Shown here: piece after piece, positions 35,584 to 56,939 of the stretch
Numbering within the stretch: position 1 is the first letter of the stretch
Layout of the letters: each line of letters opens with the position of its first letter
Assembly (NCBI GenBank): GCA_000526255.1
Contig: JAFS01000001.1
Span: 930,001-994,000 of the forward strand
Source: Verrucomicrobia bacterium LP2A
Lineage (GTDB): Bacteria > Verrucomicrobiota > Verrucomicrobiia > Methylacidiphilales > Methylacidiphilaceae
Length of the DNA stretch: 64,000 bases
Direction: 5' to 3'
Position numbers and translations under genes: made by a program
The notes under the pieces: model-generated
The model's input: the letters and a program-made list of their open reading frames with translations, nothing else
The model's database searches: none
What the model was told of the DNA's origin: nothing

Positions 35584-36464
35584 TCGGAATCTCCCTCCTC
35601 CCCCTTCCGTTCGCTCCCGCCGCCCGAAGAGTTCGCCGCCAGCTCCGGCTGACGGGAGAGAACCTTCTCCCAGAGCGCCGTAGCCGCCTTCTCGGGCTCT
35701 TCAAGATCCCACTCGATGCATTCCGCCCGTTCCGACCGGCGGGAGGGGGCAAAGACCTTTCCGACCACCGTAGGAGACCCCTTGAGTCCAATTTTGCTCA
35801 CATCCTCGATGCCCGCCGCCTTCCGGTCCCAGACCCGGATCGGCTGCCGGGCCGCCCGGATCATCTCGGGCAGCGATGCGAAACGGCCTTCATTCCTTCC
35901 TTCCAAGACGGTGATCAGGCAGGGCAGCCGGCTACTCAGCACCTGCACCCCTTTTTCGGTCCAGCGGTGCACGACGATCCTCCCGCTATTCATGTCCAAG
36001 ACGGGGATCCGGCACACATAGCTCAGCAGCTGCATCCCGAGCCTCTTGGCGACTCCGGGTCCGACTTGGCCGGTATCCCCGTCGATCGTCTGCTTGCCGG
36101 TGAAGACGAGATCGACCGCCCGTTCCTGCGACAGGCGCCCGATCGCGCTGGCCAGCGCAAAGGAGGTAGCCAACGTGTCCGAGCCGGCGAACGCGCGATC
36201 GGACACCAGCACAGCCTCGTCTGCTCCCAGCGACAGGGCTTTGCGCAGCACCGCTTCCGCCTGCGGCGGCCCCATGCAGAGCGCGACGATCCGACCGCCC
36301 AGTCGATCCTTGACCTGGAGAGCCTCTTCCAAGGCAAAGAGATCGTAGGGATTGAGCACGGCCGGAACCCCCTGGCGCATGATGGTCCCGGTCACCGGAT
36401 GGACGCGAATCTGAGCGCTATCCGGCACCTGCTTGACGCAGACCACGATATTCGGGCCTTTCAT
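35580..36464 (-). CDS. fixA: FixA, electron transfer flavoprotein beta subunit
   Basis: This 294-residue ETF beta subunit begins IVVCVKQVPDSAQIRVHP and has MNPYDLFALEE-type sequence (here VLNPYDLFALEEALQVKD), VFTGKQTIDGDTGQVGP and QLLSYVCRIPVLD, which mark the bifurcating FixA group that binds a second flavin and NADH. It overlaps the nifW stop by 4 bases, so fix genes are translated with the nif operon. Confidence 0.94.
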   Translation of the reverse strand: MKGPNIVVCVKQVPDSAQIRVHPVTGTIMRQGVPAVLNPYDLFALEEALQVKDRLGGRIVALCMGPPQAEAVLRKALSLGADEAVLVSDRAFAGSDTLATSFALASAIGRLSQERAVDLVFTGKQTIDGDTGQVGPGVAKRLGMQLLSYVCRIPVLDMNSGRIVVHRWTEKGVQVLSSRLPCLITVLEGRNEGRFASLPEMIRAARQPIRVWDRKAAGIEDVSKIGLKGSPTVVGKVFAPSRRSERAECIEWDLEEPEKAATALWEKVLSRQPELAANSSGGGSERKGEEGDSE

Positions 36465-36871
36465 GCTCCGTCCCCTCCCGAAGGAAGTTCGCTTCCTCGC
36501 TTCGCAGGCATCTCCCTTGGCACCCGCTTCGCGCGCAGCGAAGAGCGCAGATCCTCGACAGCGACCGTTGCGGAGAGGGGCTTCTTTTCCGGCGCCGGAC
36601 GATGAAAGACCGGGAAGACCTTTTCCTGCAGAGCCGACGAACGGACGAAATCCTGGTAAGCCGCTTCGAGCAGCCCCCGGTAGAAGAGACGGAGCTCCTC
36701 CTCGGCTCTGGCCTTCGGAGCGTTGGCCGAAAGCAGATACTTCTGAAAGCGCTTGAGAATGTGGAGCCGGTTGACGCGAACGACCTGGGGATCGTAGGGA
36801 ACCTCGAGATAGTCGAGAAACTCCTCCGCCGCTGAAAGGCGGCTCAGGTCGGCTAGAATGGGATCAATCAT
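36461..36871 (-). CDS. nifW: Nitrogenase-stabilising/protective protein NifW
   Basis: This 136-residue protein matches NifW, which protects or helps mature the MoFe protein: LSRLSAAEEFLDYLEVPYDPQVVRVNRLHILKRF (in consecutive pieces) is the family core. It has a basic Pro-rich tail beyond the usual ~115 residues. A sigma-54 promoter lies 24 bases upstream (36895-36910), so nifW begins a transcript that includes fixABCX. Confidence 0.85.
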   Translation of the reverse strand: MIDPILADLSRLSAAEEFLDYLEVPYDPQVVRVNRLHILKRFQKYLLSANAPKARAEEELRLFYRGLLEAAYQDFVRSSALQEKVFPVFHRPAPEKKPLSATVAVEDLRSSLRAKRVPREMPAKRGSELPSGGDGA

Positions 36872-37000: not shown

Positions 37001-37870
37001 CTATTCTCGTGGCCTTTCCGACAATCCGCCGGCCAACGCCGGGGAGAGGGCGAAGAGCGTCTCGCAGAGCTCGTTTTGGGAAAGCGAGATCCGCTCGATC
37101 CTCATCTCCTGCAAGAAGCGCTCCTCGTTGCGGGAGAGCTCCCCCGGCAGGCTCGCCCAATGGCGATCCGAGGACCGTTTGAGGATCTGCCGCGCATAGG
37201 TCCGCTCCGTCTGGCTCGAAAAGCGGCATCCAATGAAGAGGAAGCGGCTACCCCGCCGCCGTTCCTGGACCACTGACGGGATCGGCGTCTGGATGTCGAT
37301 CTCGGTGAGCACCTCCACCAGATCCGAGTCCGAGATGACGAAATGCGCCGCGGGGCTGACCGATCCAAAAGGCTTGTAGAGCACGGTCCCCCACCGGGCG
37401 GCCTCGCTGAGCGGGGCCTCGGTTCCGTCCGGACGATAGGCTCGGGTCCAGCTTCCGGGATGCTCCGCTTGGCTCACCCCTTGAATCTCTCCCCAATCCG
37501 ACCGCGAGCCGAACGCCGCCCGAAGCGCGCCGTCATACCAGACATCGACGATCAGCGGGAGCTGGGGAAGGCTCGCCAACCGCTCGTGGAGAGCGAGCTT
37601 CGGACTCGGGACCGAAAAGGTCTCGAGCAGGAGCTTCCGCAGCGTTTTACGATGCTTCTGGCTTTCGATATATTGCGCAGCCGCCGACAGAATCTTCCTC
37701 GCCCGGCTTGGGACGGCCACCCGACGCGCGAGGCTTTCGGCAAGGCTTTCGCTGTCCGTTGGAAACGGCGCGGCGGAGTCCCCCTCTCGGGCCCAAATCC
37801 CTGGCCCCAAGTAGGGGACGAGCTTTCCCGCCTCCAGACATCCGGCCATTTCGTGCAAGAAATCGCTCAT
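37001..37870 (-). CDS. SIR2-like domain protein in the nif operon
   Basis: This 289-residue protein resembles SIR2-like (SIR2_2) proteins: its start ECLEAGKL-type segment (here AGCLEAGKLVPYLGPGIW) fits the NAD-binding loop LVPFLGAG of that fold, and later LYKPFGSV and FIGCRFSSQTER fit the domain end. It is found here between the 87-residue gene and nifW. Proteins of this kind occur in other nif clusters, but the role is not known to me. The ATG at 37870 overlaps the previous stop. NAD binding or hydrolysis is an inference. Confidence 0.6.
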   Translation of the reverse strand: MSDFLHEMAGCLEAGKLVPYLGPGIWAREGDSAAPFPTDSESLAESLARRVAVPSRARKILSAAAQYIESQKHRKTLRKLLLETFSVPSPKLALHERLASLPQLPLIVDVWYDGALRAAFGSRSDWGEIQGVSQAEHPGSWTRAYRPDGTEAPLSEAARWGTVLYKPFGSVSPAAHFVISDSDLVEVLTEIDIQTPIPSVVQERRRGSRFLFIGCRFSSQTERTYARQILKRSSDRHWASLPGELSRNEERFLQEMRIERISLSQNELCETLFALSPALAGGLSERPRE

Positions 37871-38130
37871 CCCTGCCCTCCCTTCTCCGCCACCACCTCT
37901 TCTTGGGCCTCTTGGGCCTCCGGCGCTTCCCCCCGCAGCTCCTCGAGCTCGGCCCGGGGCAGGCGGAAAATTCCCCGACCGCCGGCAAACACTTGGAACC
38001 GGTCCCCCGCTTTCTTCCACAGCCGGCTGAACCAGGCCTGCGCGACGACCCCGGACGGTCTCTCCCCGATCTCCTGCACCGTTCCGTCATTCGCGAAGCG
38101 GACATGAATGACGACCAACTCTTCGTTCAT
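37867..38130 (-). CDS. Uncharacterised small nif-operon protein (87 aa)
   Basis: This 87-residue protein starts ELVVIHVRFANDGTVQEIGE and ends with an acidic Glu-rich tail. I do not recognise a family. A perfect AGGAGG lies just before the ATG at 38130, so it is well translated. Its stop overlaps the SIR2-like start, which suggests that the two products work together. Confidence 0.7.
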   Translation of the reverse strand: MNEELVVIHVRFANDGTVQEIGERPSGVVAQAWFSRLWKKAGDRFQVFAGGRGIFRLPRAELEELRGEAPEAQEAQEEVVAEKGGQG

Positions 38131-38152: not shown

Positions 38153-39328
38153 CTACAAATAGATCGCTGCTCCGGCCCCGACGTTGACCGAAGAGTCCTT
38201 CAGTGTCTTGACGATGAAGGCGATCTGCTCTTCGGTCAGATGGACATGAAACGGAAGAACGATGGAACGATCGGCCTCCTTCTCCGTGACCGGGAGGCGT
38301 CCCTTCCGCCAGCCGTTCTCGAGGGAATAACCCTGGAGGTGCATCGGCTGGCAATAGGCGGACGCCTCGATTTCCGCCTGGGCGAGATCTTCGAGAATTG
38401 CATCCCGGCTCGACCGGGTGAAGCGCGTCCCCAAATGGACCGGATAAAGGAACCAGTGAACCTGTCCCACCTCGGGAGCGACATAAGGGTCCTTGATCCC
38501 TTCGAAGGACTTCATCTGCTGGAAATACCAAGCTTCGACGAGCCGCCGGCGCTCCAGAATCCCCCCGATCCGATGGAGCTGGACGAGCCCCAGCGCCGCC
38601 GTGAGATTGCTCGGACCGGCATGGAGAGAAGGAACCATCGTTGCGATGCCAGAAAAGCGCTCTTCCCGGGAGCGGCTTCGGCCGTAGCGGATCTTGGCCG
38701 CCAGCTCCTCATCGTCGGTCACGACCATCCCGCCTTCTCCGCAGACCAGCGCTCCGGGCTGCGAAAAGTCGAAGACCGCCAACCGGCCGAACCCGCCAGT
38801 CATTCGATCGCCGTACCGGGAGCCGATCGACTCGGTCGAATCTTCCAGCAGGAGCAGTCCCTGCTCTTCCGCCAGCCGCTCCAGCTCCCGCCACGGCGCG
38901 GGATGGCCGAGCGTGTTTCCGGCGAGGATCGCCCGCGCTCCCTCTCGAGCCGCCTCCGCCACCCGCTCCGGAGAAAGGGCTCCCGACCAGTAGTCGATGT
39001 CGACGAAGCGGGGCTCGGCTCCGCACAAGGCTACCGCCGCTCCGACCTGGTGCCACGAATAGCCTGAAAGGATCACCCGGTCCCCGGGGCCGATGCCCAG
39101 AGCGCGGAGGGCGAGCCAGAGGCCGATGGCACCGCTGCCGACCGCCACCGCATGCTTGCGCCCTACCCAGCCGGCGAATGCGTTCTCCCACTCGTCGACC
39201 AACGCTCCTGCGCTGATCTCGGGCGACCGGAGCACCGAATCGACCGCAGCCAGCTCTTCTTCCGAGAGATCGGGATCGGAGAGCGGGATGCGCGGCAGGG
39301 GAGCTCCCGCCGAGGGTCCCGCCCTCAT
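38153..39328 (-). CDS. DegT/DnrJ-type PLP-fold protein lacking the catalytic lysine
   Basis: This 391-residue protein has the fold of sugar aminotransferases of the DegT/DnrJ/EryC1/StrS family: IPLSDPDLSEEEL at the start, AVGSGAIGLWLALRALGIGPGD, the Asp in LLLLEDSTESIGS and the block CGEGGMVVTDDEELA. In aminotransferases the segment before GEGG has a lysine seven residues into the block beginning F-x-F. Here it is VFDFSQPGALVCGEGG, with glycine (G192) at that place, so no internal aldimine with PLP is possible. The ATG at 39328 overlaps the nifT stop. It may be a binding protein or catalyse a different reaction. Confidence 0.8.
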   Translation of the reverse strand: MRAGPSAGAPLPRIPLSDPDLSEEELAAVDSVLRSPEISAGALVDEWENAFAGWVGRKHAVAVGSGAIGLWLALRALGIGPGDRVILSGYSWHQVGAAVALCGAEPRFVDIDYWSGALSPERVAEAAREGARAILAGNTLGHPAPWRELERLAEEQGLLLLEDSTESIGSRYGDRMTGGFGRLAVFDFSQPGALVCGEGGMVVTDDEELAAKIRYGRSRSREERFSGIATMVPSLHAGPSNLTAALGLVQLHRIGGILERRRLVEAWYFQQMKSFEGIKDPYVAPEVGQVHWFLYPVHLGTRFTRSSRDAILEDLAQAEIEASAYCQPMHLQGYSLENGWRKGRLPVTEKEADRSIVLPFHVHLTEEQIAFIVKTLKDSSVNVGAGAAIYL

Positions 39329-39546
39329 ACCCCTCCCTCTACGGACAAGCGCCGCGCCTCGACCGTGATGGGGAGGGGCGTATCGCCCGGCATCTCCGGA
39401 AGCTGGAAGCGCCATCCGTTGGCGAGCGTGACCATCCCGCCCCAGAGCCCGGGCTTCTCGGTGGTGACCACCGGTTCTTCCAGATCCTTTTTCGCCACGT
39501 AGACCGAAAGCTCTCCCTTGACCCCTCTCCGAAGCATGATCTTCAT
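39325..39546 (-). CDS. nifT: Nitrogen fixation protein NifT
   Basis: This 73-residue protein matches NifT/FixU: KIMLRRGVKGELSVYVAKKDLEEPVV and WGGMVTLANGWRFQLPEMP (in pieces) followed by LPITVEARRLS. The function is not settled; it is non-essential in known diazotrophs. It sits between nifS and the DegT-like gene with overlapping start and stop codons. Confidence 0.93.
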   Translation of the reverse strand: MKIMLRRGVKGELSVYVAKKDLEEPVVTTEKPGLWGGMVTLANGWRFQLPEMPGDTPLPITVEARRLSVEGGV

Positions 39547-40712
39547 CCCGCCCTTCCTCCCCCGCTTTGCGCCCCGCTGACCGCCAAAGCCTCCTCCACG
39601 ATGCCTCGAGCCGCTCGCTCCACCTGCCCGATGGTCGTCTCCTCTCCCAGGCTGAAGCGGATCGTGGCCCGCGCCTCCTCCGCCGAAAGTCCCATGGCCA
39701 GGAGAATCCGCGAGGGCTCTGTTCCCCCGCTCGCACAGGCCGAGCCCAAGGAAGCCTCGATGCCGCGCTGCTCCAGCCGGGCGAGCAGCTCTTCTCCGTC
39801 GATCCGTCCGAACCGCACGCTCGCCGTGTTAGCCACCCGAGGACTCTCTCCTCCATTGACCGCGGCAAAGGGGAGCGCCTGGAGGATCTCTTTCTCTAGC
39901 CGATCGCGGAGCCACCCCACCGCTTTTACCCGATCCGCGAGCCCACTCGCGGCCAGCCGTGCCGCCGCGCCAAACCCGACAATGCCCACAACGTTCTCGG
40001 TCCCCCCCCTCCGGCCCCGCTCCTGGTGGCCACAAAGCAGGGGAGGCAACGCAACCCCCTTTCGCAGGAAAAGGGCGCCGATCCCCTTGGGCCCTCCCAG
40101 CTTGTGAGCGGAAAACGAGAGAAGATCGAAGGGGAGCTCCCCGGCATCGACCGGGATCTTTCCCACCGCCTGCGCCGCGTCCAGGTGACAGAGGAGACCC
40201 TGCTCCTTCGCCAGAAGGAGAACCTTTTCGACCGGGCTGATCACCCCCGTCTCGTTGTTGACCCAGACCAGAGACAAGAGCGACGCCGGTCTGGCGAGCG
40301 CTTCCTCGAGGGCACCAAGATCGACCCACCCTTGCCGATCGACCGGCAGCCGGACGATCTCCACCCCGCGGTTTTCCAGCCGCTCGAAGAGCAGGCCAGT
40401 GCTCGGATGCTCCACCGTCGTGGACAAGACACGGGGCCGGTCCGGAGTCAGCTCAAGCGCTCCCAGGATCGCCTGGTGGATCGACTCGGTGCAGCCGCTC
40501 GTAAAAAGGATTTCCGGGGGCTTGGCGCCGATCAGGGCCGCCACCTCGCTCCGCGCTCGTCCGAGCGCTTCCTTGGCGAGCCCTCCGCTCAAACCCGGGC
40601 TCGAGGGATTCCCGAAGCGCTCCCGAAGATAGGGGAACATCTCCTCCAGGGCTTCCGGCCGCAAGGGGGCCGTTGCGTTGTGATCGAGATAGATCCGATC
40701 GATTTCACCCAT
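39543..40712 (-). CDS. nifS: Cysteine desulfurase NifS
   Basis: This 389-residue PLP enzyme takes sulfur from cysteine for Fe-S cluster assembly. It has YLDHNATAPLRPEALEEM, the PLP lysine in SFSAHKLGGPKGIGALF, and the active cysteine in SLGSACASGGTEPS. The ATG at 40712 overlaps the nifZ stop; an earlier ATG at 40730 would overlap nifZ further. nifU is not found in the window, so sulfur probably goes to other scaffolds. Confidence 0.94.
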   Translation of the reverse strand: MGEIDRIYLDHNATAPLRPEALEEMFPYLRERFGNPSSPGLSGGLAKEALGRARSEVAALIGAKPPEILFTSGCTESIHQAILGALELTPDRPRVLSTTVEHPSTGLLFERLENRGVEIVRLPVDRQGWVDLGALEEALARPASLLSLVWVNNETGVISPVEKVLLLAKEQGLLCHLDAAQAVGKIPVDAGELPFDLLSFSAHKLGGPKGIGALFLRKGVALPPLLCGHQERGRRGGTENVVGIVGFGAAARLAASGLADRVKAVGWLRDRLEKEILQALPFAAVNGGESPRVANTASVRFGRIDGEELLARLEQRGIEASLGSACASGGTEPSRILLAMGLSAEEARATIRFSLGEETTIGQVERAARGIVEEALAVSGAQSGGGRAG

Positions 40713-41007
40713 GATTGACCTGGGGCTCAACTGTTCCCGCTCCCTCTTCCTCCACGGGTTCCAGCTCCTTGCCCTTCATCCCGACCACGTAGCCGCGCTC
40801 GTAGAAGTCGACGCCGTAGATGTAAAAGCGCTGGAGAAAGGTACCGATGCTCGTCACCACTCCCCTCTCCCCCTTTTTGATCAAGACCTCACCGATCTCC
40901 TTTCCGGGGAAGGTCCCGTCGTTCCGGATATGCCTCCTCGAGACCACCTTTTGGCCGTAGGCGAAGGCGGGCGGCCCCTCGAGCTCGACTTCGTCGTCCA
41001 TGCCCAT
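40705..41007 (-). CDS. nifZ: NifZ, P-cluster maturation protein
   Basis: This 100-residue protein matches NifZ, which helps form the second P-cluster of the MoFe protein: FAYGQKVVSRRHIRNDGTFPG, GEVLIKKGERGVVTSIGTFLQ (in pieces) and YIYGVDFYERGYVVGMKGKEL. The ATG at 41007 is used; the longer frame overlaps the upstream TPR-type gene. It is followed by nifS with overlap. Confidence 0.9.
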   Translation of the reverse strand: MGMDDEVELEGPPAFAYGQKVVSRRHIRNDGTFPGKEIGEVLIKKGERGVVTSIGTFLQRFYIYGVDFYERGYVVGMKGKELEPVEEEGAGTVEPQVNHG

Positions 41008-41023
41008 AAGATTGTCCTTTCCT

Positions 41024-41554
41024 TCAGTCCTCGTCCTCCGTCTGCCCCCGCTCGACGATCCTCCGCAGATCCCCTCCCCGCAGCAGGCCCTTGGGGTCGA
41101 GCTCCTCCAGCTTGCGCAGAGCCGCAAGCCCCTTCTCCCGCTCGCCCAGGCGGCTCTCGAGATAGCCGTAGGCTTTCAGGGCAAAGAGGTAGAGGCGGAA
41201 GAGGGGATCTTCCTGGGCCCTCTCTTCCCGACGGGCAGCGCAAACCGTGCTCCACTCTTGGGGAAGGCCTGCCTTCCTCGCTACGGCCTCCAGGCAAGCG
41301 AGCGCCCAGTCCCGGGCCTCCACGAGCTTCCCCGAGTAGAAGGCGTACCGATAGTTGCCGATCAGGACGGAGATATGCTCCGGATCGGCCTCGATTGCTT
41401 CGCGCAAGAGCGCTTCGGCCCGGGACTGCGCCCGACCCGAACGGCCCGCCGCGCGGAGGAGCTCTTCGGCGCGGCTCGAAAGCGACCCCCAATACGCCTC
41501 AGCGAGCGCACCCACGCCGGGAAGCGCTTCCGCAAGAGGAGCTTCGGTTCCCAT
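41024..41554 (-). CDS. TPR-type protein of the nif operon (unknown role)
   Basis: This 176-residue helical protein contains a repeat-like block LLREAIEADPEHISVLIGNY, then AFYSGKLVEARDWALACLEA, which resembles tetratricopeptide repeats, and a later LEELDPKGLLRGGDL. Such proteins usually bind other proteins. It lies between iscA-like and nifZ in the nif operon. I do not know a defined function. Confidence 0.65.
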   Translation of the reverse strand: MGTEAPLAEALPGVGALAEAYWGSLSSRAEELLRAAGRSGRAQSRAEALLREAIEADPEHISVLIGNYRYAFYSGKLVEARDWALACLEAVARKAGLPQEWSTVCAARREERAQEDPLFRLYLFALKAYGYLESRLGEREKGLAALRKLEELDPKGLLRGGDLRRIVERGQTEDED

Positions 41555-42180: not shown

Positions 42181-43764
42181 TTAGGCCGCCTGGCCCGCAG
42201 GCGCGCTCAACTCGATAAACGCCCCCTGCCGAATCATCGCGTCCCCGCGCTCGATATCGACAAGCTCTCCGTTCTTCAACCTCTCCAAGTAGCTCCGGTA
42301 GTAGGAGATCGTAGCGGTCTCAATGTAGCCGTAGGCATACTGGTCGACCGGCTCGATTCCCGCCTTCCGCAGCTCTTCCTTGGGACAACCCCCGATCTTG
42401 GCCACGAAGACCGCGACACAGTCATTGATCGCACGAATGACCCCCGCGAGGGCGTCCTCTTCCCCGTAGCCGCCCTGGCAGTAGAGATCGACGCGCCGAT
42501 GCCCCACGAACTTGGAGCCGGCCACGCTCAGCTCGTAGATCTGAAACTCCTTGGCGTGCCCGAAATGTTCGTTTACCTTTCCGCCGCCCTTGGTAGCGAC
42601 CGCCACCAGGATCTTCCGATCGCTGTTCTCTCCCGCCAGCGTGAGGAGCTCCTGCTCCCGCGCCGCTTTCCTGACCTCCCGCTCGATCTCCACCGAGTCC
42701 CGATAGGACCGGCGCTTCGCGGCGTCGTACTCGACCTCCATCGACTCGATCCGCTCGGTCGTGAACTCGGCCCCCCGGTCCTCGCCGAGCAAGCCGACCG
42801 CGTCGGCCCGGCACTGGCGGCAGTGGCGCATCATGTTCATCTCTCCCTCGCACTTGTCCTGGAGCGCCTTGAGCTCCTGAGCGGATGGCCCGCGCTGTCC
42901 GGAAAGCCCGAAGACCGTTCCATGCTCTGGCGAAGAGATGAGTGGCATGATGTTGTGCAGGAAGGCTCCTCGGCTCTTGACCGCCTTATTCACCTCGACC
43001 AGGTGATCGTCGTTGATCCCGGGGATCATCACCGAATTGACCTTGCAGAGGATTCCCGCTTGGGTCAGCATTTCGAGACCCTCCAGCTGCCTCTCCGTAA
43101 GGAGCTTCGCCGCATCCTTCCCCGTGTAGCGCTTGTGACGGAAGAAGACCCAGGGATAGATCCGGGCGCCCACCTCGGGATCGACCATGTTGATCGTGAT
43201 CGTGACATGATCCACCTTGAAATCCTTGATCCGCTCGACGTAGTCGGGCAGCGCAAGCCCGTTGGTCGAAAGGCAGAGCTTGATGTCCGGAGCGGCCTTG
43301 AACACGAAGTCAAAGGTCTGGAAGGTCTTGTCCGGATTAGCCAGGGGATCTCCGGGCCCGGCGATTCCGAGGACCGTCATCTGCGGGATCTCGGAAGCCA
43401 CGGCGAGAACCTTCTTCGCCGCCTGCTCCGGGGTCAGCCGTTCGCTCACCACTCCGGGACGGCTCTCGTTGGCGCAATCGTACTTCCGGTTGCAGTAGTT
43501 ACACTGAATGTTGCAAGCGGGGGCGACCGCCACGTGCATCCGCGCATAGTGGTGATGCGCTTCCTCGCTGTAGCAGGGATGATTCTTGACCTTCTCCCAA
43601 ATTTCCGAGGGCAGATCGCCCGAACCGGCACTCGAGCCGCAGCTCGACTTGCCGCTTCCCCCGCTCGATCCGCAACCTTTATGGGGTGCTACGGGGATCG
43701 TCAGCCCCTTCAAATTCGAAAACCGAGCAATCACGCCTTGTCCAGGTTCCTTAAGAGCTTCCAT
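42181..43764 (-). CDS. nifB: FeMo-cofactor biosynthesis radical SAM protein NifB
   Basis: This 527-residue protein makes NifB-co, the Fe8-S9-C precursor of the nitrogenase cofactor. The radical SAM motif is in [20 protein letters not shown] (C-x3-C-x2-C). A Gly/Ser-rich region with two Cys ([16 protein letters not shown]) precedes it. A NifX-like C-terminal domain (about residues 390-510; [23 protein letters not shown]) holds the product. The ATG at 43764 lies 77 bases downstream of a sigma-54 start site. It heads the long minus-strand operon ending with fixX or before nifW. Confidence 0.96.
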
Positions 43765-43851
43765 CGCTTCTTCCCTTTCTGGCGGCTTCTTCGTTGTTGC
43801 GAGCGTTCCCCGCGCCTTCCATCGCGGAAAACCACGCATCGAGAGGGATCG

Positions 43852-43867
43852 AGCAAAGAACGTGCCA
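43852..43867 (-). promoter_or_regulatory. Sigma-54 promoter before nifB
   Basis: Minus-strand sequence TGGCACGTTCTTTGCT matches TGGCACG-N4-TTGCW at every fixed position. The predicted transcription start is near 43841, 77 bases upstream of the nifB ATG. Confidence 0.9.
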
Positions 43868-43940
43868 AGTCGGCGATCGCCTCTCTTCCTCGGAGAGCGG
43901 AGCAGTCGAGATTTCCGCCCGACGTCTGGGGAGCCCGCCC

Positions 43941-43956
43941 TGTCGTAACCGTGACA
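43941..43956. promoter_or_regulatory. NifA upstream activator site (TGT-N10-ACA) for nifB
   Basis: TGT (43941-43943), ten bases, then ACA (43954-43956), the NifA-binding consensus. Its centre is about 107 bases upstream of the predicted nifB start site, the usual distance. It lies in the 341-base stretch between nifB and the iscA-like gene, which holds no gene. Confidence 0.85.
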
Positions 43957-44105
43957 CAGGATGTTGTTTTCTTTTGTCCGCTTCTCCACAGCGGCCAAAC
44001 GGACCAAGGAGGGCGGCTCGAGCGCACAGGCCCGGGAAGGCGGACATCCGCCGAAAAGAAAAGGAAACCCCGCGCCAAGCGGTGGGAGGCACCGGCTTTC
44101 GCTGC

Positions 44106-44429
44106 TTAGGTGTTGAAGCTCTGACCGCAGCCGCACTCGCTCTTCGCCTTCGGGTTATGGAATGCGAAACCCTCGGCAAACGGCTGACGAACATAGTCCA
44201 AGAGAAGACCGTCGAGCAGCGGAAGACTCTCGGAGGCGACGACGAGGCGGAGCCCGCGGCTTTCAAAAACCTGGTCGTCGGGAGAAATCGACTCCGCTTT
44301 TTCCAGCAGATAACTCCATCCGGCACACCCGGAGCGGGTGAGCCCGATGCGGAAGGTCGCCCCTTCGGATTTGCCCTTGAGAAAAGAGCGGAGGCGGTCG
44401 GCCGCCGCATCCGTGAGCTCAATCGCCAT
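44106..44429 (-). CDS. A-type Fe-S carrier protein (IscA/HesB family), copy 2
   Basis: This 107-residue protein has the full IscA cysteine pattern: SGCAGWS and ECGCGQSF. It is the classic size for IscA. It overlaps the erpA-like gene by 11 bases and precedes nifB on the same strand. It probably delivers clusters to nitrogenase proteins. Confidence 0.9.
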
Positions 44430-44865
44430 GATCGTGCGCCTCCGCCTGCTCCTCCGATTGGGAGCAGGTCGAAAATGAGGAGCCGCAGCTGCAGGTGGAA
44501 GCCGCGTTCGGATTGACCACCACGAAACGCGCGCCGTTCAGATCCTCTTCGTACCGGATTTGGGCCCCCGCCAGAAAAGGGAGGCTCCGCGAATCAATCA
44601 CCACGGTCACTCCCCCCGATTCGATGGAGAAGTCGTCCTCTTCCTCCCTTTCATCGAAGGCGAAATTGTACTGGAAACCGGCGCAGCCTCCTCCCGTTAC
44701 ATAGACGCGCAGCTTGAGATCCGTTCGACCGTCTTCCTCGAGGAGGCTCCGGATCTTTTCCACCGCGTCCTCCATCAGGGTGACTGCGGGAGCGGCCTCC
44801 GAGTCCGTCCTGCTCACGGTGCTCAGCCCCTCTGTTTTCTTCGATACCGTTGTGCTTCCTTCCAT
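44419..44865 (-). CDS. A-type Fe-S carrier protein (ErpA-like), copy 3
   Basis: This A-type carrier has GGGCAGFQYNF and STCSCGSSF, the ErpA/IscA cysteine pattern, and a C-terminal His-containing tail ([15 protein letters not shown]). The start is uncertain. The ATG at 44865 (148 residues) would lie only 2 bases after the predicted sigma-54 start site. A GTG at 44817 with AGGGG upstream gives a family-sized 132-residue protein and a 50-base leader. ATGs at 44898 and 44946 lie upstream of the predicted start site. It is divergent from nifA. Confidence 0.82.
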   Translation of the reverse strand: MEGSTTVSKKTEGLSTVSRTDSEAAPAVTLMEDAVEKIRSLLEEDGRTDLKLRVYVTGGGCAGFQYNFAFDEREEEDDFSIESGGVTVVIDSRSLPFLAGAQIRYEEDLNGARFVVVNPNAASTCSCGSSFSTCSQSEEQAEAHDHGD

Positions 44866-44877
44866 GAATGTGCATCG

Positions 44878-44893
44878 AGCATCTTGCGTGCCA
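44878..44893 (-). promoter_or_regulatory. Sigma-54 promoter before the erpA-like/iscA-like pair
   Basis: Minus-strand TGGCACGCAAGATGCT matches TGGCACG-N4-TTGCW apart from one T to A. The predicted start is near 44867. It faces away from the weaker site for nifA at 44920-44935. No TGT-N10-ACA site was found nearby. Confidence 0.78.
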
Positions 44894-44919
44894 GACATGC
44901 CACGATCCGTGCGAAAGGT

Positions 44920-44935
44920 TGGCAAGGAATCTGCT
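44920..44935 (+). promoter_or_regulatory. Possible sigma-54 promoter before nifA
   Basis: Plus-strand TGGCAAGGAATCTGCT keeps the GG and GC pairs at the right spacing, with C to A and T to C changes relative to TGGCACG-N4-TTGCW. The start would be near 44946, 39 bases before the nifA ATG. It would allow NifA to raise its own level. Confidence 0.6.
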
Positions 44936-44984
44936 TCCTTTATCATGGAGACCGAGCGCCGATCGGAATCCCCATCAGAAAGCG

Positions 44985-46568
44985 ATGCAGCCCTTCAACC
45001 TCGAGCTCACGACGATTTACGAGATCAGCAAGCTCCTCAACTCCTCCCTCGATTTGGAGTATTCGTTCCGCGGTGTCCTCAAGCTTCTAGCCGCCTACCT
45101 GGGAATCGAGCGAGGAATGGTCGTTTTGGGCGAAGGCGAGATGTTGCATGCGGTCGCCTGGCTCGGCTTTCCTCAAGAGCAGCTCGGACCGGATCGGATG
45201 GCCGGGGCGGGGTCGGTTATCCGTTATATTCAAAAGACAGGTTTCCCGACGGCGGTCCCCGACGAAAGCCAGGAGCCCCTGCTCGCGGGCTATGTCGCCG
45301 GCTTCCCCCACCGGAAGGGCCCTCCGATCTCCTTCCTCGGGATCCCCATCCTCCACGATCGGGAGTGCCTCGGGGTGCTCATCCTCGAGCGGCGATCGGC
45401 CGGACCGTCCGCCCGGCTCCGCGAGGATACCCGGCTCCTCCAGCTCGTCGCCAACCTGATGGGCCAAGCGATCCGCTTATGCGACAAGATCGCCGAGGAG
45501 CAGCGTCGTCTCGTCGCGGAACGAGACCGCCTCCGGACCGAGTTAGCGACCAAGCATCGGATCGAGAATGTGATCGGTCAGAGCAAGCGGATGCAGGAGG
45601 TGATCGCGCTTACCCACCAGGTCGCCTCCAGCCGCTCCACCGTTCTCCTGCGAGGCGAGAGCGGGACGGGAAAGGAAGCGATCGCCCGCGCCATCCACTT
45701 CCTGAGCCCACGAAAGAACGGCCCCTTCATCAAGCTCAACTGCGCGGCCCTGCCCGAATCGCTCCTCGAGTCGGAGCTTTTCGGACACGAGAAAGGGGCG
45801 TTCACGGGAGCCCTCCACGAACGGAAGGGACGTTTCGAGCTGGCGCACGGAGGAACGCTCTTTCTCGACGAGATCGGGGACATCTCGCCGGCTGTGCAGG
45901 TCAAGCTCCTGCGCGTCCTCCAGGAACGGGAGTTCGAGCGGCTGGGCGGGAGCCGGACCATCCACATAGACGTCCGGCTGATCACCGCAACCAACCGGAA
46001 TCTCGAGGAGGCCGTGCTCAAGGCTGAATTCCGATCCGACCTCTACTACCGGATCAACGTGGTCAGCATTTTCCTGCCTCCCTTGCGGGAGAGAACCGAC
46101 GACATTCCGCTCCTGGTCGAGCATTTCCTCCATAAGATGGGGGAGGATTTCGGGCGGCAGCTCTCGATTTCGAGTCGGGCCTTGGACGTTCTCGTCCGCT
46201 GCCAATGGCCGGGGAACGTCCGCGAGCTCCAAAACTGCCTCGAGCGCGCGGTCAACGCCGCCGCGTGCGGCCGGATCGAGGAGAGCAACGTCTCCTGCCA
46301 GAGCGGCCAGTGCTTATCTTCCCTGCTCTGGAAGCGGGAGCTGACTCCGCTCCCCACCCCGATTGTCGTCCAGCCGGCGCCGGTCCCGGAAAGCTGCCTG
46401 GATAAGCAGAGCCTGGCGCGCTCGCCTTCGGGCGCGCGGGAGCAGCTCCTCGAAGCGATGGAGCGATGCGGCTGGGTTCAAGCCAAAGCGGCCCGGATGC
46501 TCCACCTCACCCCGCGCCAGCTGGGTTACGCCCTTCGCAAGTATGAGATTCCGATCAAGAAGTTTTGA
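44985..46568 (+). CDS. nifA: Nif-specific sigma-54 activator NifA (oxygen-sensitive type)
   Basis: This 527-residue enhancer-binding protein turns on nif genes. It has an N-terminal GAF domain (about residues 1-165), an AAA+ domain with Walker A GESGTGKE (224-231), the sigma-54 contact loop GAFTGA (271-276) and Walker B TLFLDEIG (291-298), and a C-terminal helix-turn-helix (around 495-520). Cysteines C406, C418, C438 and C443 give exactly C-X11-C-X19-C-X4-C, the motif needed for oxygen and metal response in rhizobial NifA and absent from NifL-controlled NifA. The ATG at 44985 fits; the longer frame overlaps the promoter region. It is divergent from the erpA-like gene. Confidence 0.93.
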
Positions 46569-48588: not shown

Positions 48589-49446
48589 CTACGGACGGGT
48601 GACCGGGGCGCCGACCTTGTTGCCCCACTCGGTCCACGACCCATCGTAGTTGCGGACCTTCTTGTGACCGAGCAGATAGGTGAGGACGAACCAGGTGTGG
48701 CTCGATCGCTCGCCAATCCGGCAGTAGACGACCGTGTCGCTTTCCGGGGTGAGTCCGCACTCTCCCTCATAGGTCTTCCGAAGCTCTTCCGGAGACTTGA
48801 AGGTGGCATCCTCCCTTACCGCGGTTTTCCAGGGCATGCCCTTGGCCCCGGGAATGTGGCCGCCGCGGAGCGCCCCTTCCTGCGGATACTCGGGCATGTG
48901 GAGCAGCTCGCCCGTGTACTCGCCCGGGCTCCGCACGTCGATCAGCGGCAGCCCCGCGCGCTGGTGGGCGAGGGTCTGCTCGTAGAAGGCGCGGATCTCC
49001 CCATCTCGCCGAGCCGCCGGCGTCGGATAGGCCGTCTCCCGGTAGGAAGGCTTCTCCCGAGTCAGCTCCCTTCCTTCGCTGGTCCACTTGTCTCGGCCGC
49101 CGTTGAGGATCTTGGCGTTCCGGTGGCCATAGAGCTCAAAGGCCCAAAGGGCATAGCAGGCCCACCAGTTCGATTTGTCCCCGTAGAAGATGCAGGTTGT
49201 CTCCGGGGTGATGCCGTTTCGGCGACAGAGCGCCGCAAAAGCCTCCGGGGAGATGTAATCGCGAATCATCTGGTCCTGCAGGTCGCGCCGCCAGTCGATA
49301 TGGACCGCTCCCGGGACATGCCCGGTATCGTAGAGAAGCACGTCTTCATTGCTCTCCACGATGCGGATTCCCGGGTCGTTCCGGTGCTCCGCGAGCCATT
49401 CGGTCTCGACCAGCTTCTCCGGATGAGCATAGGCAATCGTCGTCAT
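48589..49446 (-). CDS. Two-domain sulfurtransferase (rhodanese family)
   Basis: This 285-residue protein has two rhodanese domains. The second has the active cysteine in [14 protein letters not shown]; the first has DKSNWWA in place of a cysteine, as is normal for the inactive domain. [14 protein letters not shown] and [14 protein letters not shown] mark the two domains. It transfers sulfane sulfur, for example from thiosulfate. The ATG at 49446 lies 22 bases after the nifQ stop, so it is likely to be read with the nifHDKENX operon and may supply sulfur for cofactor assembly (inference). Confidence 0.9.
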
Positions 49447-49468
49447 CGTTCTCTCCTTTGGTTGTTTC

Positions 49469-50026
49469 CTAATCCTTTCCGAAACAGATTGCGTAATCGG
49501 TGCATTCCCGACAGCTCGGCGCCTTGCAAGCCTGAAATCCCGCCCGCTCGCAGAGCTGCCTGTAGAAGAACCTCTTCCAGCGCATGTCTCCGACGTTTCG
49601 GTCGCGCAGCGGACGGAAGTGGCCCTCGAGGAGGAGGCTGAGCGCCTTCCGGTCGGGGAGGCCAAGATCCTGCCAGAGATGATCGTCCGCCAGGCAGGCT
49701 GCGGCAATGGCGTGCGCGATCCATCTCGACTCTTCCGATCCATCCCCTGACTGAGCCAAGAGGGAGACGAGCTCCCAAAAATCCTCCGGGATCACGCTGG
49801 CTGGACAAGCCGGTTTCCTTTCGGCCTCGCAAAAGGCGAGCAGCCGCTCAAACGAGCGGTCGTCGAGACCGAGGCGGGGCACGCAGGGGAAGGCTCCCCT
49901 GGCGGCAAAGCGCCGGACGACGTAGCGGAACATCCCGCGCAGCATCGCCCTCTCCTCCGCAGCACCGATAGATGGGGCCAATACGGAGAGAGTCGGCATC
50001 GTCGGAGCGGCCGCGCAGGTAACCAT
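49469..50026 (-). CDS. nifQ: NifQ, molybdenum donor for FeMo-cofactor
   Basis: This 185-residue protein matches NifQ by its C-terminus: [17 protein letters not shown] followed by C167-x4-C172-x2-C175-x5-C181, the site of its Mo-Fe-S cluster. It brings molybdenum to NifEN/NifH for cofactor completion. It starts 6 bases after the DUF269 stop. Confidence 0.9.
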
Positions 50027-50032
50027 GACCTC

Positions 50033-50503
50033 TTATCCCCCGTAGCGGGCGACCTCCGGGAACTTCTCGATCATCTCCAGCGCCGCCGTGATATGCTTTC
50101 CCCCCGCCTCCGCGAGCTTTTCGCGATTGGGAAAGCCGAAGCGATGGACATCCCGGAGCACCTTGTTGACGACCGCCAGCCGGCCCGCGAGGAGGACCAT
50201 CTTTCCAAAGCCTTCGTGGTGCATCGACATCATCGGGACCACCATCACCCCCGTCTTCCGTTCGATCGTGAGCCCGACCGCGTTGAAGAAGAGCTCCACC
50301 CGCTCGAGGGTTTCAGGGTCAGGGTCGCCCACAATCGGAATCTGCCTCCGCTTCTCGGCATCGAGGATAAAGGGCTCCAGCAGCTCCTCGTCCTTCTTTC
50401 CGTCCCAGACGCCATAGGTGTCCTGGGCCCGCTGCTGCTTCACGAGCTCGCGAAGAAACCCTTCCCGCAGCTCGCTGGTCACGGTCTCCAGCTCGGTCGT
50501 CAT
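50033..50503 (-). CDS. NifX-associated protein (DUF269)
   Basis: This 156-residue protein matches the NifX-associated family: [37 protein letters not shown] and [15 protein letters not shown]. It is regularly placed after nifX; its biochemical role is not clear. The ATG at 50503 lies 2 bases after the nifX stop. Confidence 0.9.
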
Positions 50504-50505
50504 CT

Positions 50506-50910
50506 TCACTCCATTTCCTCCTTGAAGTCCCATGTTTTCTCCTTTCCTTTCAAAAGCGCCTTTCGCAGCCATGGCGGGGGAGTCCCCCGGAGGACTTCCT
50601 GGAGCTTTTCCAAGATCTCGCGGATCGGCTCCAGATCCTTCGCCTTCACCGGATGGATCTTCTGCGCCACCACGCGCGCCGCCCCGGAAGCGCCGATCGC
50701 CGCCACGTAGAGAATGGCGCAATCCTTGATCGCCGCGAGCTTGGGCTCGAGCTTATCCTCGTTTCCGTCCTCCTCGAGGTCCCCGGAAAAATCGACCGTC
50801 TTCCAATGGCGCGCCTCGGTTTCGTCGATCTCGTAGATCGCGATCGTCTTCGCCCAACCGAAATGGGCATTCACCCGAATTCCATCCTGTGTCGCAAAAG
50901 CCACTTTCAT
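50506..50910 (-). CDS. nifX: NifX, cofactor carrier
   Basis: This 134-residue protein holds NifB-co or VK-cluster between NifB, NifEN and the apo-MoFe protein. It has [26 protein letters not shown], the NifX/NifB C-terminal fold, and [16 protein letters not shown]. The ATG at 50910 overlaps the nifN stop. The longer frame upstream is in nifN. Confidence 0.92.
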
Positions 50911-52289
50911 CCCGTCTTCTGATCCTCCTCTTGGCATTCGCATGCCCGAGCGGCTTCTTCGTGAGGCCCCCGCCCGGGCCAATGAGTTCCTTCTTCCTCT
51001 TCCCGAGCCGTAATGAGCAGATTGGCGACGTCGAAAAGGAAGTTCCGGCTCCCCCGGTAGCCGACCAACACCTGGTGGGCTGCACCCAACCGGTCGAAGA
51101 TCGGGAGGCCGATCCGATAAAAGGGAATCTGTAGCCGGGCGGCCATCTGGCGGCCGTGCGAATGGGTCAACAGGAGCTGACATCCGAGCGCCTCCCGCTC
51201 CAGATCCTCCAGGTCCCCGATGCGGACCCGCTCCGCGGGCAGGTCGGCAAAGACGATCGACTCGGTCGTCGAAACCGCTGCCTTGAGCTCGCATCCGAGC
51301 TCCGCGAGCCAGTGGCCCACGTTCTGAAGGAGATCGGGCTCAGCACCAATGGCGACCTTCACGCCGCCGAAGAAAAAGTGGCCGTCAAGCATCGCGTCGA
51401 CCAGTTGCGATCGCTGCCGGTGATAGATCTGCGGCACGGGCCGACCCGAGAGCTCTGCAAGAAGATGGAGGAAGCGATCGACGGACCGGAGGCCCATGAG
51501 GCGGTCGACGAGGATGTGAGGCACCCCGGTCTTCATCTCGAGGGCCAGGGCCGCCCCCCGCATCTGCTCGCCGATTGCGATCGTCGCCCGGGAAGAGCCC
51601 ATCCTGCGGATCTCTTCCAAGCGTGTGCCGCCCAAGGTCGTGGGCGTGAAATCCTCGGGAATGTGCCCGTCGAGGGAGCCCGAGAGATCGGGAAGCAGGA
51701 TCGTCCGGAAACCGAAGGACTCCACGATCTGCCGGATCTCCTCAAGGTCCCCGGGAGAAAGGTGGCTTCCCGCCAAGAGGTTGATTTGATCGTCGATCCG
51801 CATCGCCGCGGGCTCGACCAGCTCTTCGACAATTTGAGAAACCGTCTTCGCCCAGCCGTCCTGGAAGGCTCCTTTGAAGTCGGGGGTCGAGACGTAGACA
51901 ACCGGGAGATCCGCCAGCTCGGGCCTCCGCTGCCGGATCAGCTTCAGGTACCCGACGACATCGTCCCCCTTGGTCTCCGTCAGCCCTGTGGAGCAGATCC
52001 CGACGATCTGGGGCTTGGCTCGCTGCGCGATATTGAGCAGCGCCTGCTCGATATTCTCCATCCCGCCGAGAATGGTGGTGACCTCGTTCATGGCCGTCGT
52101 CTGCAGCGGAATCATCTCGCGGAAGTGGCGGACGAAGAGGACGAGCCCGAAGGCGGTGCATCCTTGAGAGCCATGCAGGACCGGCATGCAGCCGTGAATG
52201 CCCATCAGCGCGAGAGCCCCGCCGATCGGCTGGCTCATCTTGAGCGGGCTTACGCTGCACGCCTTTCTCGAGGTAATGACATCGGCCAT
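50907..52289 (-). CDS. nifN: NifN, FeMo-cofactor scaffold subunit
   Basis: This 460-residue protein pairs with NifE to form the scaffold on which the cofactor is finished. It has VSPLKMSQPIGGALALMGI, VLHGSQGCTAFGLV with the cluster cysteine, ICSTGLTETKGDDV, and later blocks of the nitrogenase alpha/beta family. A tail rich in acidic residues and two cysteines (CECQEEDQ) ends it. The ATG at 52289 is chosen over an upstream frame without similarity. nifE ends 29 bases before. Confidence 0.95.
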   Translation of the reverse strand: MADVITSRKACSVSPLKMSQPIGGALALMGIHGCMPVLHGSQGCTAFGLVLFVRHFREMIPLQTTAMNEVTTILGGMENIEQALLNIAQRAKPQIVGICSTGLTETKGDDVVGYLKLIRQRRPELADLPVVYVSTPDFKGAFQDGWAKTVSQIVEELVEPAAMRIDDQINLLAGSHLSPGDLEEIRQIVESFGFRTILLPDLSGSLDGHIPEDFTPTTLGGTRLEEIRRMGSSRATIAIGEQMRGAALALEMKTGVPHILVDRLMGLRSVDRFLHLLAELSGRPVPQIYHRQRSQLVDAMLDGHFFFGGVKVAIGAEPDLLQNVGHWLAELGCELKAAVSTTESIVFADLPAERVRIGDLEDLEREALGCQLLLTHSHGRQMAARLQIPFYRIGLPIFDRLGAAHQVLVGYRGSRNFLFDVANLLITAREEEEGTHWPGRGPHEEAARACECQEEDQKTG

Positions 52290-52318
52290 GGTCCCTTCCC
52301 CTTCTTGCGCTTCGCCCT

Positions 52319-53704
52319 CTATGCTTCCTGCCACGGAGCCGGAAGACGTACCTCCTGCCAAACCGGGTTGCTGAGCGCCCGGTCGATCTCGGCGACCAGA
52401 GCGACCATCCCGTCATAGCCGGCATAGGCATGATGGCGCTCCTGGTTGATGTCGAGCCAGGGCATCTTCGCCTTTAGGGCGACGAATTGAGAACGGCCTC
52501 CAGAAAGCATGATATCCGCCCGGGCTTCCTTGAGCATCCGGTACATCTCCCGGGGCGTCATCTCCTCGATCATATGGGCTTCTTCGCCCATCAGCTTCTT
52601 GATCCGCTCCTTGTCCTCGTCCGTCGACTTTTTCACACTCGTCCCGACGATTTCCATGCCCACCTCCTGCAAGGCGGAAACCACCGACCAGGACTTGACC
52701 CCTCCGGTGATCAGCAGCACCCGCTTGCCGGCGAGCTGCTTCTGGTAGGTCTTGAGCTTCTCCCACGCCTTCTGCTCCTCCCGCCGGATCAAGATCTCGG
52801 TCTTGGAAAGCAGCTCTTCGGGAGCGCCACGTCCCACGAGCAATCTTGCCAGATGGCGAAGGGCGTCGCTCATGTCGGAGATCCCGTAGAAGGAGCCCTC
52901 GAAGAAGGGGATTCCGTACTTCTCCTCCATCTTGCGGGCGATATTGATCATCGCCTTGGAGCAGACCAGTATGGTCGCCTTCGCCCGATGACAGGAGGCA
53001 ATCTCCTGGTACTTGGCGTTCCCGGAGATGCAGGCCAGGATCCGAATGCCGAGCTGATCGAGGAGCGGCTTCACCTGCCAGAGCTCGCCCGCCAGGTTGT
53101 ACTCCCCGATGATGTTCACGTCGCAGGGAGTCGTATAGGCCGGCTCCTCGGTCCCGATGACATGATCGAGCAGCGCCTCCCCGGCGAGCTTGTTGCCCAG
53201 GTTCTTGCTGCCGGCGAAGCCGGGTGACTGGACCGGGACAATCGGGCGTCCAAACTGCTTCTTGGCCGCTTGGCAGACAGCGTCAATATCGTCGCCAATC
53301 AGAGCGGGGACGCAGGTCTGGTAGACGAAGACTGCGGGAGGGTCGTAGCGGTCGATCGCCTCCTTGATTGCGCGAAAGAGGCGCTTCTCCCCCCCGTAGA
53401 CCACGTCCATTTCCTGAATGTCAGTCGTGAAGCCCATCCGGTAGAGATGGGAATCGGAGGACTTGGACCCCCGATTGTCCCAGGAATTTCCTTCGCAGGC
53501 GATCGGCCCGTGGACGAGGTGGACCACGTCGGTGATCGGCTGGAGGGCGATCTTCGCCCCGTCGAAGGCACAGCCTCCGGCGGCGGCCCCCGGCTGGAGC
53601 TGCTTGGTGCAGCCCTTCTTCCGCTCCTTATCCGATTTCGCCCGGTTCTTGACGCAACCGGGCTCCTGGAAGACCGCCTGGACCTTTTCCGACAGGTTGC
53701 TCAT
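52319..53704 (-). CDS. nifE: NifE, FeMo-cofactor scaffold subunit
   Basis: This 461-residue NifD-like subunit of NifEN has CAFDGAKIALQPITDVVHLVHGP (in pieces), VYQTCVPALIGDDIDAVC, PVQSPGFAGSKNLGN and YEGYDG-type end (here AYAGYDGMVALV). It holds the L-cluster made by NifB and swaps in molybdenum and homocitrate. It lies 27 bases after nifK. Confidence 0.95.
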   Translation of the reverse strand: MSNLSEKVQAVFQEPGCVKNRAKSDKERKKGCTKQLQPGAAAGGCAFDGAKIALQPITDVVHLVHGPIACEGNSWDNRGSKSSDSHLYRMGFTTDIQEMDVVYGGEKRLFRAIKEAIDRYDPPAVFVYQTCVPALIGDDIDAVCQAAKKQFGRPIVPVQSPGFAGSKNLGNKLAGEALLDHVIGTEEPAYTTPCDVNIIGEYNLAGELWQVKPLLDQLGIRILACISGNAKYQEIASCHRAKATILVCSKAMINIARKMEEKYGIPFFEGSFYGISDMSDALRHLARLLVGRGAPEELLSKTEILIRREEQKAWEKLKTYQKQLAGKRVLLITGGVKSWSVVSALQEVGMEIVGTSVKKSTDEDKERIKKLMGEEAHMIEEMTPREMYRMLKEARADIMLSGGRSQFVALKAKMPWLDINQERHHAYAGYDGMVALVAEIDRALSNPVWQEVRLPAPWQEA

Positions 53705-53731
53705 CCCGGCTCCTTTCGGCCCCTTTCCCTC

Positions 53732-55312
53732 CTACCGAATGATGTCGAAGCTGTAGTCCGACTTTGCGGGAACGTTGGTGTTCCGATCCATCTCGTCGAA
53801 GATCTTGTCCAAGATCCAGACGAGCACGTTGAGTGCGCCCTGATAGCCCCAGACCGGATACCGGTGATGGTGGTGGCGATCGAAGATCGGGAATCCAAGC
53901 CGGATCAGCGGCGTTCCCGTGTCGCGCTCGAGATACTTGGCATAGGTGTTCCCGATCATGAAGTCGACCGGCTCCGTGAAGAGAAGCGAGCGCAGATGCC
54001 AGAGATCCTTTCCGGGATAGACCTGGCAGCCGGCTCCAAAGGGTGAGGAGCTGAAGAGCTCGCGCACCTTCCCTTCCCACGCCGCGTCGGCGTTGGTCGC
54101 CAACACGTGCGCCGGCTCCGCTCCGAGCTCAAGCAGGAATCCCGTGATCCCAAGCGCCACATCGGGATCGGCATAGACCGCGAACCGCTTCCCGTGGATA
54201 TGCGCACTCGAATCGGCGATCGCATCGACGAGCCGGCCACGCTCCTTTTCGAGCGACTCGGGAATCGGCTTCCCCGAGAGGCGGGAGACCTCCTGGAGGA
54301 AGCGGTCGGTCGCCGCGATCCCGATCGGGTAATGGAGGCCGATGGTCTCCTGCCCTTTCTTCTCGATGTAGGGGAGCGTCTTGGGCGTGCAGAAGCTCTG
54401 CATCGAGATCGTCGCCTTGGAATGCAAGGCGTCGGAGATCTCGGAGAGCTTGGTGCCGCCGTCGTACATCCGAAAGGTCCCGTCGGCCGGGGTATCCCAG
54501 ACGTCGCTGTTGTCGGAGACGATCAGGTAGTCGACCCCCATCAGATCAAGAATCCGTCGGACCTCCCGGACGTTCCCCACCACATTGCCGTCGAAGCCGA
54601 TGATCAGGTTGATCCTTCCGTTGGGCTCGCGCACAAGCGGGGGCACGGTCTTGGCCTTGCCGTCCCAGAAGTACTCGAGGATCCCCTTCATCATGTTGTC
54701 ATACCCGGTGATATGACTGCCCACGAACGAAGGCGTGTGGGCGAAGGGAACGTCGAAGTCCTGCGGAACGCTCCCCTTCTCCCGTGCGTTCTTGATAAAC
54801 GCATTGAGATCGTCCCCGATCACTTCCGCCATGCAGGTCGTCGAGACCGCAATCATCTTCGGCTTGTAGAGCGCGTAGCTGTTGGCCAGGCCATCGATCA
54901 TGTTATTGAGACCGCCAAAGACCGCCGCGTCCTCGGTCATCGAGGAGGAGACACAGCCGCTCGGCTCCTTGAAGTGACGGCTGAAATGGCTCCGGAAGTA
55001 GGCGACACACCCCTGCGACCCGTGGACGAAGGGGAGGGTTCCCTCGAACCCGACCGCCGCGAAGATCGCCCCCAAAGGCTGGCAGGCCTTCGCGGGGTTG
55101 ATCGTGATCGCCTCGCGGGCGAAGTTCTTGTCCCGATATTCCTTGGTCTTCGTCCACTCGCGAATCCGTTCGACCTCGTCCGAGCAGGTGGGATCCTCGA
55201 ACTCCCGCTTCTTCCGCTCGAACATCTCCAGGTATTGCGGCTGCCGAAAGAGATGAAAGTGGTCGAGAACGTTTTCCGCGTTCTGACTCTTGGTCTCTCC
55301 ATTTGTCTCCAT
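53732..55312 (-). CDS. nifK: Nitrogenase MoFe protein beta chain
   Basis: This 526-residue protein forms the alpha2-beta2 MoFe protein with NifD. P-cluster cysteines lie in [32 protein letters not shown] and [14 protein letters not shown]. The length and blocks such as [21 protein letters not shown] are as in molybdenum nitrogenase. It follows nifD after 53 bases and ends before nifE. Confidence 0.97.
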
Positions 55313-55365
55313 ATCTTCTCCCTTTCTTGGTTAGTGAGTTACTCCCAGACTCTCTTTCCGCCGCT

Positions 55366-56841: not shown

Positions 56842-56939
56842 AGTCTTTCTTCCCTCCGCGGTTTCGCTATTCCCTCGCACGCAAGGGACTGCCGGCTGGG
56901 AAACCGCCCACCCAGCCGGCCAATCCTTCCTTCCGATCC

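Follow-up and report, generated by a model that had tools for sequence, protein, structure and literature searches.

Cysteine-type NifA proteins form a well known class in alpha- and beta-proteobacteria (Bradyrhizobium, Rhizobium, Azospirillum, Herbaspirillum), in which a GAF domain, an AAA+ domain, an interdomain linker and a helix-turn-helix (HTH) domain are combined with a four-cysteine motif, and no NifL partner is present. Experiments on these cysteines in Bradyrhizobium were reportedly carried out by Fischer et al. in 1988. In the alpha- and beta-proteobacterial proteins the cysteines have been tied to redox or oxygen sensitivity, possibly by way of a metal centre whose nature is left undefined (PMC10590331, PMC9866876), and the positions given for Herbaspirillum and Azospirillum, C414/426/446/451, correspond to C-X11-C-X19-C-X4-C (PMC9866876). 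An acidophile is also among the described cases: the Acidithiobacillus ferrooxidans NifA is reported to have no accompanying nifL, to carry a CXXXXC motif and to group with beta-proteobacterial proteins (PMC2607301). The NifL-dependent type is represented by Azotobacter vinelandii NifA (PDB 9qq6), which works with NifL and lacks, in our alignment, counterparts of three of the four cysteines (C406, C438 and C443 in the numbering used below).

The DNA analysed here, referred to as the window, is a stretch of 64,000 nucleotides from Verrucomicrobia bacterium LP2A (Methylacidiphilaceae). It encodes a NifA with the exact C-X11-C-X19-C-X4-C motif, 48% identical to the Bradyrhizobium and Rhizobium etli proteins and, in the sequences compared, sharing their alignment positions for the motif. 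What is new is a member of the cysteine-type class in another phylum; a search of full-text literature, most subscription journals lying outside its coverage, turned up neither an account of such cysteines in a verrucomicrobial NifA nor an experiment on one of these proteins. Unlike the alpha/beta class, the host family belongs to the verrucomicrobial relatives of acidophilic methanotrophs, and its NifAs show an additional cysteine in the GAF domain (C128) and one member with altered spacing. A. vinelandii NifA shares domain order and fold with the window protein, but the NifL-dependent class is not matched, since the window gene has no adjoining NifL and the cysteine set is present. A. ferrooxidans, likened to the window NifA through its published description (PMC2607301), is an acidophile but a proteobacterium. 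A close counterpart is the plasmid-borne NifA of Methylococcus sp. EFPC2, with the same motif and 51% identity. The family is very probably one of verrucomicrobial methanotrophs, and we infer that the window host is a methanotroph as well; such organisms hold an oxygen-requiring methane monooxygenase and an oxygen-damaged nitrogenase in one cell.

The nifA gene and its nif cluster

The gene (44985..46568, plus strand) encodes 527 residues with, in Pfam order, a GAF domain (residues 24-163, 45054..45473), an AAA+ sigma-54 interaction domain with its lid (PF00158 and PF25601, residues 196-435, 45570..46289) and an HTH_8 DNA-binding domain (residues 485-520, 46437..46544), all on the plus strand and renumbered from a longer 566-residue frame; GAFTGA and Walker A motifs are seen in the translation. 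With the NifA equivalog model TIGR01817 the protein reaches 635 bits, where the curated cut-off stands at 528.85. The longer frame results from an upstream ATG at 44868, which was rejected as the start. A -24/-12 site (44920-44935) sits between the two ATGs, downstream of the first, and the beginning of the shorter protein, MQP(F/I)NLEL, is found at the same place in four (L219, L090, L094, L095) of the five same-genus relatives tried, the start of the fifth, L220, having not been located; 44985 is therefore the better start.

Divergently from nifA lies an erpA-like gene for an Fe-S insertion protein (44419..44946, minus; NF010147, 149.8 bits, cut-off 117), whose ORF is over-extended at its 5' end. 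It is followed on the same strand by a second IscA/ErpA-like gene (44106..44429, PF01521), by nifB (42181..44136; Radical_SAM and Nitro_FeMo-Co domains, over-extended, with its promoter inside the ORF), by a further iscA-like gene between nifB and nifZ, by nifZ (40705..41127) and by a class-V aminotransferase of nifS type (39543..40730), its family assigned by domain and its name from the cluster. A DegT-family gene (38153..39868) and a SIR2-like gene (37001..38020) precede nifW (36461..36871) and the probable fixA, fixB and fixC (33167..36464; two ETF subunits and an FAD oxidoreductase, named from domains and order), again on the minus strand. The DegT and SIR2-like genes (37001-39868) recur within the nif clusters of this family and of a number of proteobacteria. 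On the other side of nifA, also on the minus strand, lie genes for a rhodanese, nifQ and a DUF269 protein (48589..50722), and nifH, D, K, E, N and X (50506..57827), with nifH identified by its equivalog model and the others by domain and order.

Putative sigma-54 promoters were scored out of 11 against the -24/-12 consensus with GG-N10-GC. Six sites in the window reach at least 10, against 0.8 expected and with none of 200 simulated sequences holding as many. Four of the six precede erpA (44878..44893, minus, 10 of 11), nifB (43852..43867, minus, 11 of 11, with TGT-N10-ACA elements at 43941 and 43975), nifW (at 36895, 10 of 11) and nifH (57914..57929, minus, 10 of 11, with TGT-N10-ACA at 58124). 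The remaining two, each scoring 10, have no gene identified ahead: 58181 (plus) points away from nifH and 32751 (minus) lies beyond fixC. The exact TGT-N10-ACA element shows no excess over the whole window, where 4 copies were found against 2.5 expected and 46 of 200 simulations reach 4. The site of nifA itself (44920..44935, plus) scores 9 of 11, and since sites of at least 9 number only 16 against 9.3 expected, its assignment rests on conservation: the divergent nifA/erpA pair is seen in nine of 11 family loci, window included, with a nifA site of at least 9, the two exceptions being L095, where the contig ends, and L092, whose start was not located. The gene for sigma-54, rpoN, was found in all six family genomes searched. 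Profile scores and predicted promoters thus confirm the window gene as a NifA in a nif cluster with sigma-54-type promoters.

The four cysteines and their distribution

Counted from the ATG at 44985, the protein holds ten cysteines (128, 166, 253, 406, 418, 428, 438, 443, 471 and 495), four of which, C406, C418, C438 and C443 (46200..46313, plus strand; codons starting at 46200, 46236, 46296 and 46311), build the quadruple. Placing ten cysteines at random in 527 residues produced it in 10 of 200,000 trials (about 5e-5), and L001, L003, L004 and L005, further sigma-54 activators encoded in this genome, lack it. C406 and C418 lie in the AAA+ lid, and C438 and C443 just behind it, at the start of the linker. 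In an AlphaFold model built on 32 rows, 5 of them motif-bearing, mean pLDDT is 87 and the ten-residue blocks containing C406, C418, C438 and C443 reach 91, 94, 85 and 67, respectively; with only moderate confidence in its block (441-450), C443 is not firmly placed, and residues 456-479 fall below 50.

An earlier note on this DNA had read the gene as a NifA with the exact rhizobial cysteine arrangement at the end of the AAA+ domain and in the linker. The gene, the spacing and the placement all held, and the cysteines align with those of the rhizobial proteins of R. etli CFN42 (L110), S. fredii NGR234 (L111) and Bradyrhizobium embrapense (L010); the label rhizobial stood only in part, since some beta- and gamma-proteobacteria, Methylococcus sp. 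EFPC2 among them, show the same spacing. All 7 NifA places in the class of Bradyrhizobium bear the motif; the share is 9 of 33 for the class that contains a Rubrivivax genome and 7 of 69 for the order that contains a Methylomicrobium genome (EFPC2 and six others). The exact motif is also carried by the rhizobial plasmid NifAs L110, L111 and L113 (six of 102 plasmid records examined), and a scan of named genomes gave four motif-bearing loci among 80 (L009, L010, L013, L016), all from proteobacteria. Judging from these genes, the X11-X19-X4 spacing is not specially rhizobial: alpha-, some beta- and some gamma-proteobacteria carry it. In Nitrospirota, 4 of the 50 places read (110 listed) show a C-X11-C-X19-C-X2-C variant; these NifAs (L246-L249, from G1229, G1201, G1211 and G1220) form a well-supported clade of their own outside Pseudomonadota.

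Within the family, for which a search of 40 genomes supplied six of the same genus and six from elsewhere in the family, 11 NifAs were found in 13 genomes, with none over the cut-off in G002 (83% complete) and G008. All 11 keep the four cysteines, ten with the exact spacing and one (L092, from G005) with X21 in place of X19 owing to a two-residue insertion. The exact motif is present in the NifA of G007 (L089/L214), which is taken as M. fumariolicum SolV. Between the two genera compared (L098, L089) identity is 53-57% over the whole protein and falls to 28-31% in the linker (424-480), where both cysteines are nevertheless retained. Outside the family the motif occurs in none of the 29 verrucomicrobial loci read, of which 24 were among the 30 best-scoring hits of one search and five came from another.

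Columns were compared in an alignment of 96 NifA rows, a selection of loci. Its proteobacterial part had been divided according to whether a protein carries the motif, and the 29/29 and 0/24 found there follow by construction. In the 24 motif-less proteobacterial rows a cysteine is found at C406 in none, at C438 in none, at C443 in one and at C418 in 15. Among rows that were not chosen by motif, comprising 16 from other Verrucomicrobiota and 16 from elsewhere, no cysteine stands at the positions of C406, C438 or C443 in either set, against 14 of 16 and 8 of 16, respectively, for C418. Consequently C406, C438 and C443 are diagnostic, whereas C418, common in motif-less NifA, is not; C253 is nearly universal in the alignment.

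Ancestry and relation to NifL

Phylogenetic relationships were derived from a careful tree of 58 selected rows with the cysteine columns omitted. The family and the motif-bearing proteobacterial NifAs form one clade (100/98); as this grouping does not depend on the cysteine columns, the motif goes with a lineage. A clade of the family with other verrucomicrobial NifA is rejected, with p-AU 1.95e-6 in the careful tree and 1.6e-5 in a first tree, cysteine columns again omitted. Within the clade the window NifA groups, less firmly, with beta and gamma rows rather than with the alphas (93/95, unstarred). A specially rhizobial origin is not upheld; a position of the family as sister to all proteobacterial members gives p-AU 0.10 and is not rejected. 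On the sequence evidence, therefore, the ancestry of the family NifA lies inside or beside the proteobacterial cysteine-type clade. An earlier quick tree of 96 rows proved not to be optimal: two constrained topologies exceeded the unconstrained one by 33 and 34 log units, one keeping the family out of the proteobacterial class (p-AU 0.897) and one joining it to the alphas, a grouping that was not rejected there (p-AU 0.885). For this reason the careful tree was relied on.

Gene order points the same way. The order nifB-iscA-(unnamed)-nifZ-nifS-DegT-SIR2 is common to the window, the EFPC2 plasmid, G218 and G300, and partly to G311, and Hou et al. had already noted that the nif operons of M. infernorum resemble those of Methylococcus capsulatus (PMC2474590). 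The window cluster being partly collinear with proteobacterial ones, transfer of a cluster is supported, and the four-cysteine NifA apparently came in with a proteobacterial-type nif cluster by horizontal transfer. The nearest row in the quick tree, L126 (G352, contig C342), is a cysteine-type NifA at bases 3-1670, near the end of its contig; the order to which its genome belongs otherwise showed 26 NifAs, all motif-less and with NifL. The contig is probably misbinned, and no donor is named from it.

The earlier note had also proposed a shared ancestry with the proteobacterial regulators and control without NifL. Just as the tree bears out the former, the latter agrees with the NifL search, in which the model stays below its cut-off in each of the 12 family genomes searched (all but G002). 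The same model exceeds the cut-off in all five genomes taken as NifL-type controls and, among 19 proteobacterial genomes picked for cysteine-type NifA, in three (G439, which is EFPC2, G469 and G478). These three genomes of the Methylomicrobium order, among its seven with the motif, differ from the window family in adding a second, motif-less NifA with NifL beside it. In EFPC2 the cysteine-type NifA lies on a plasmid that also carries a part-length NifL about 8 kb away.

Across the flanks examined in Pseudomonadota, NifL (own profile, above 100 bits, repeated loci counted once) adjoins none of 23 cysteine-type NifA genes and 104 of 109 others; with the limit at 60 bits, L013 has a weak 82-bit match and L109 picks up the plasmid NifL. 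It should be noted that each type is essentially one clade, and the exclusion between motif and NifL is thus to be read at clade level, not as 132 independent events. Five proteobacterial NifAs (L129, L133, L138, L144, L316) have neither the cysteine set nor an adjoining NifL, longer flanks having been inspected for four of the five as far as the contigs reached; NifA is apparently workable without either device beside it. Allochromatium is published as having neither (PMC3368242).

Proposed oxygen response and competing readings

The best explanation, which we consider likely, is that the family has a NifL-independent, redox- or oxygen-responsive cysteine-type NifA. In its favour stand the exact motif, its retention in a linker that has otherwise diverged, the place in the cysteine-type clade, the absence of NifL over the cut-off, the mutual exclusion of motif and NifL in Pseudomonadota, rpoN and the sigma-54 sites. 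The two cysteine pairs, one in the AAA+ lid and one at the linker start, would bind a metal or form a redox centre that NifA requires when oxygen is low and that is lost or oxidised in air. Transcription from the nif promoters and from that of nifA itself would then fall silent in oxygen without NifL, and fixed nitrogen would be signalled separately, through the GAF domain, PII and Ntr. Published work on SolV also speaks for such a scheme: in the chemostat it grew on N2 only below 0.5% oxygen saturation, no nifL was identified according to the report, and the table puts nifA at 1080 RPKM in N2-fixing cells against 123 otherwise (a 30-fold rise in the text), the effect of high oxygen on nif expression without ammonium or nitrate being left there to be addressed (PMC3404531). 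The low-oxygen need of SolV may, however, just reflect nitrogenase damage. The motif alone is no proof of an oxygen-off switch, because in Methylosinus sp. 3S-1, whose cysteines are conserved, nif mRNA is reported to be higher at 20% than at 2% oxygen (PMC12727197).

That observation speaks for a different reading, to which we give a minor but real share: the cysteines would form a structural metal site required for NifA function, with nitrogen controlling nif and oxygen hitting only the nitrogenase. It fits with the SolV nif genes tracking nitrogen supply, being described as unexpressed under oxygen limitation with ammonium (PMC3404531). It is weakened by the link of the same residues in characterised alpha/beta NifAs to oxygen or redox sensitivity (PMC10590331, PMC9866876), and by the fact that the motif replaces NifL across the sampled Pseudomonadota, as expected if both serve oxygen or redox control. 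Oxygen might also act further upstream, on nifA transcription, through another regulator of FNR-like or two-component type, the cysteines being a relic. The -24/-12 promoter of nifA, conserved in nine of 11 family loci, implies that nifA needs an activator and so lends this some credit; a relic, though, would hardly have kept all four residues in a linker region that has otherwise diverged so far between genera, and we regard the proposal as improbable. Independent origin of the pattern within the verrucomicrobial proteins would profit from C418, already a cysteine in 14 of 16 other verrucomicrobial rows, but is contradicted by the tree tests (p-AU 1.6e-5 and 2.0e-6 for a clade with these proteins), by the 29 verrucomicrobial loci read outside the family, none with the motif, and by the gene order common to proteobacterial clusters. 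Convergence was rejected on the tree tests, and we assign it next to no probability.

The motif names a specific candidate oxygen sensor together with the residues to alter, in a family of which strains are in culture, and oxygen control in these methanotrophs becomes directly testable. An acid-adapted cysteine-type family also provides material for finding what the cysteines bind, called unknown in PMC10590331. More tentatively, and with the odds rather against it, the cysteine switch could be viewed as an old, transferable oxygen or redox module, exchangeable with NifL and no rhizobial speciality, whose cysteines the NifL lineage lost once NifL took over. Outside Pseudomonadota its holders are the verrucomicrobial family, with all 11 NifAs found, and the Nitrospirota group with the X2 variant. 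Were this true, the X21 and X2 variants would mean separate cysteine ligand pairs serving one centre and joined by a flexible stretch.

A final point concerns two cysteines outside the quadruple. C128 in the GAF domain (45366-45368) and C495 in the HTH region (46467-46469) are invariant in all 11 family NifAs, and C128 is found in only one of the 85 other alignment rows; they may constitute a second redox site or reflect chance fixation.
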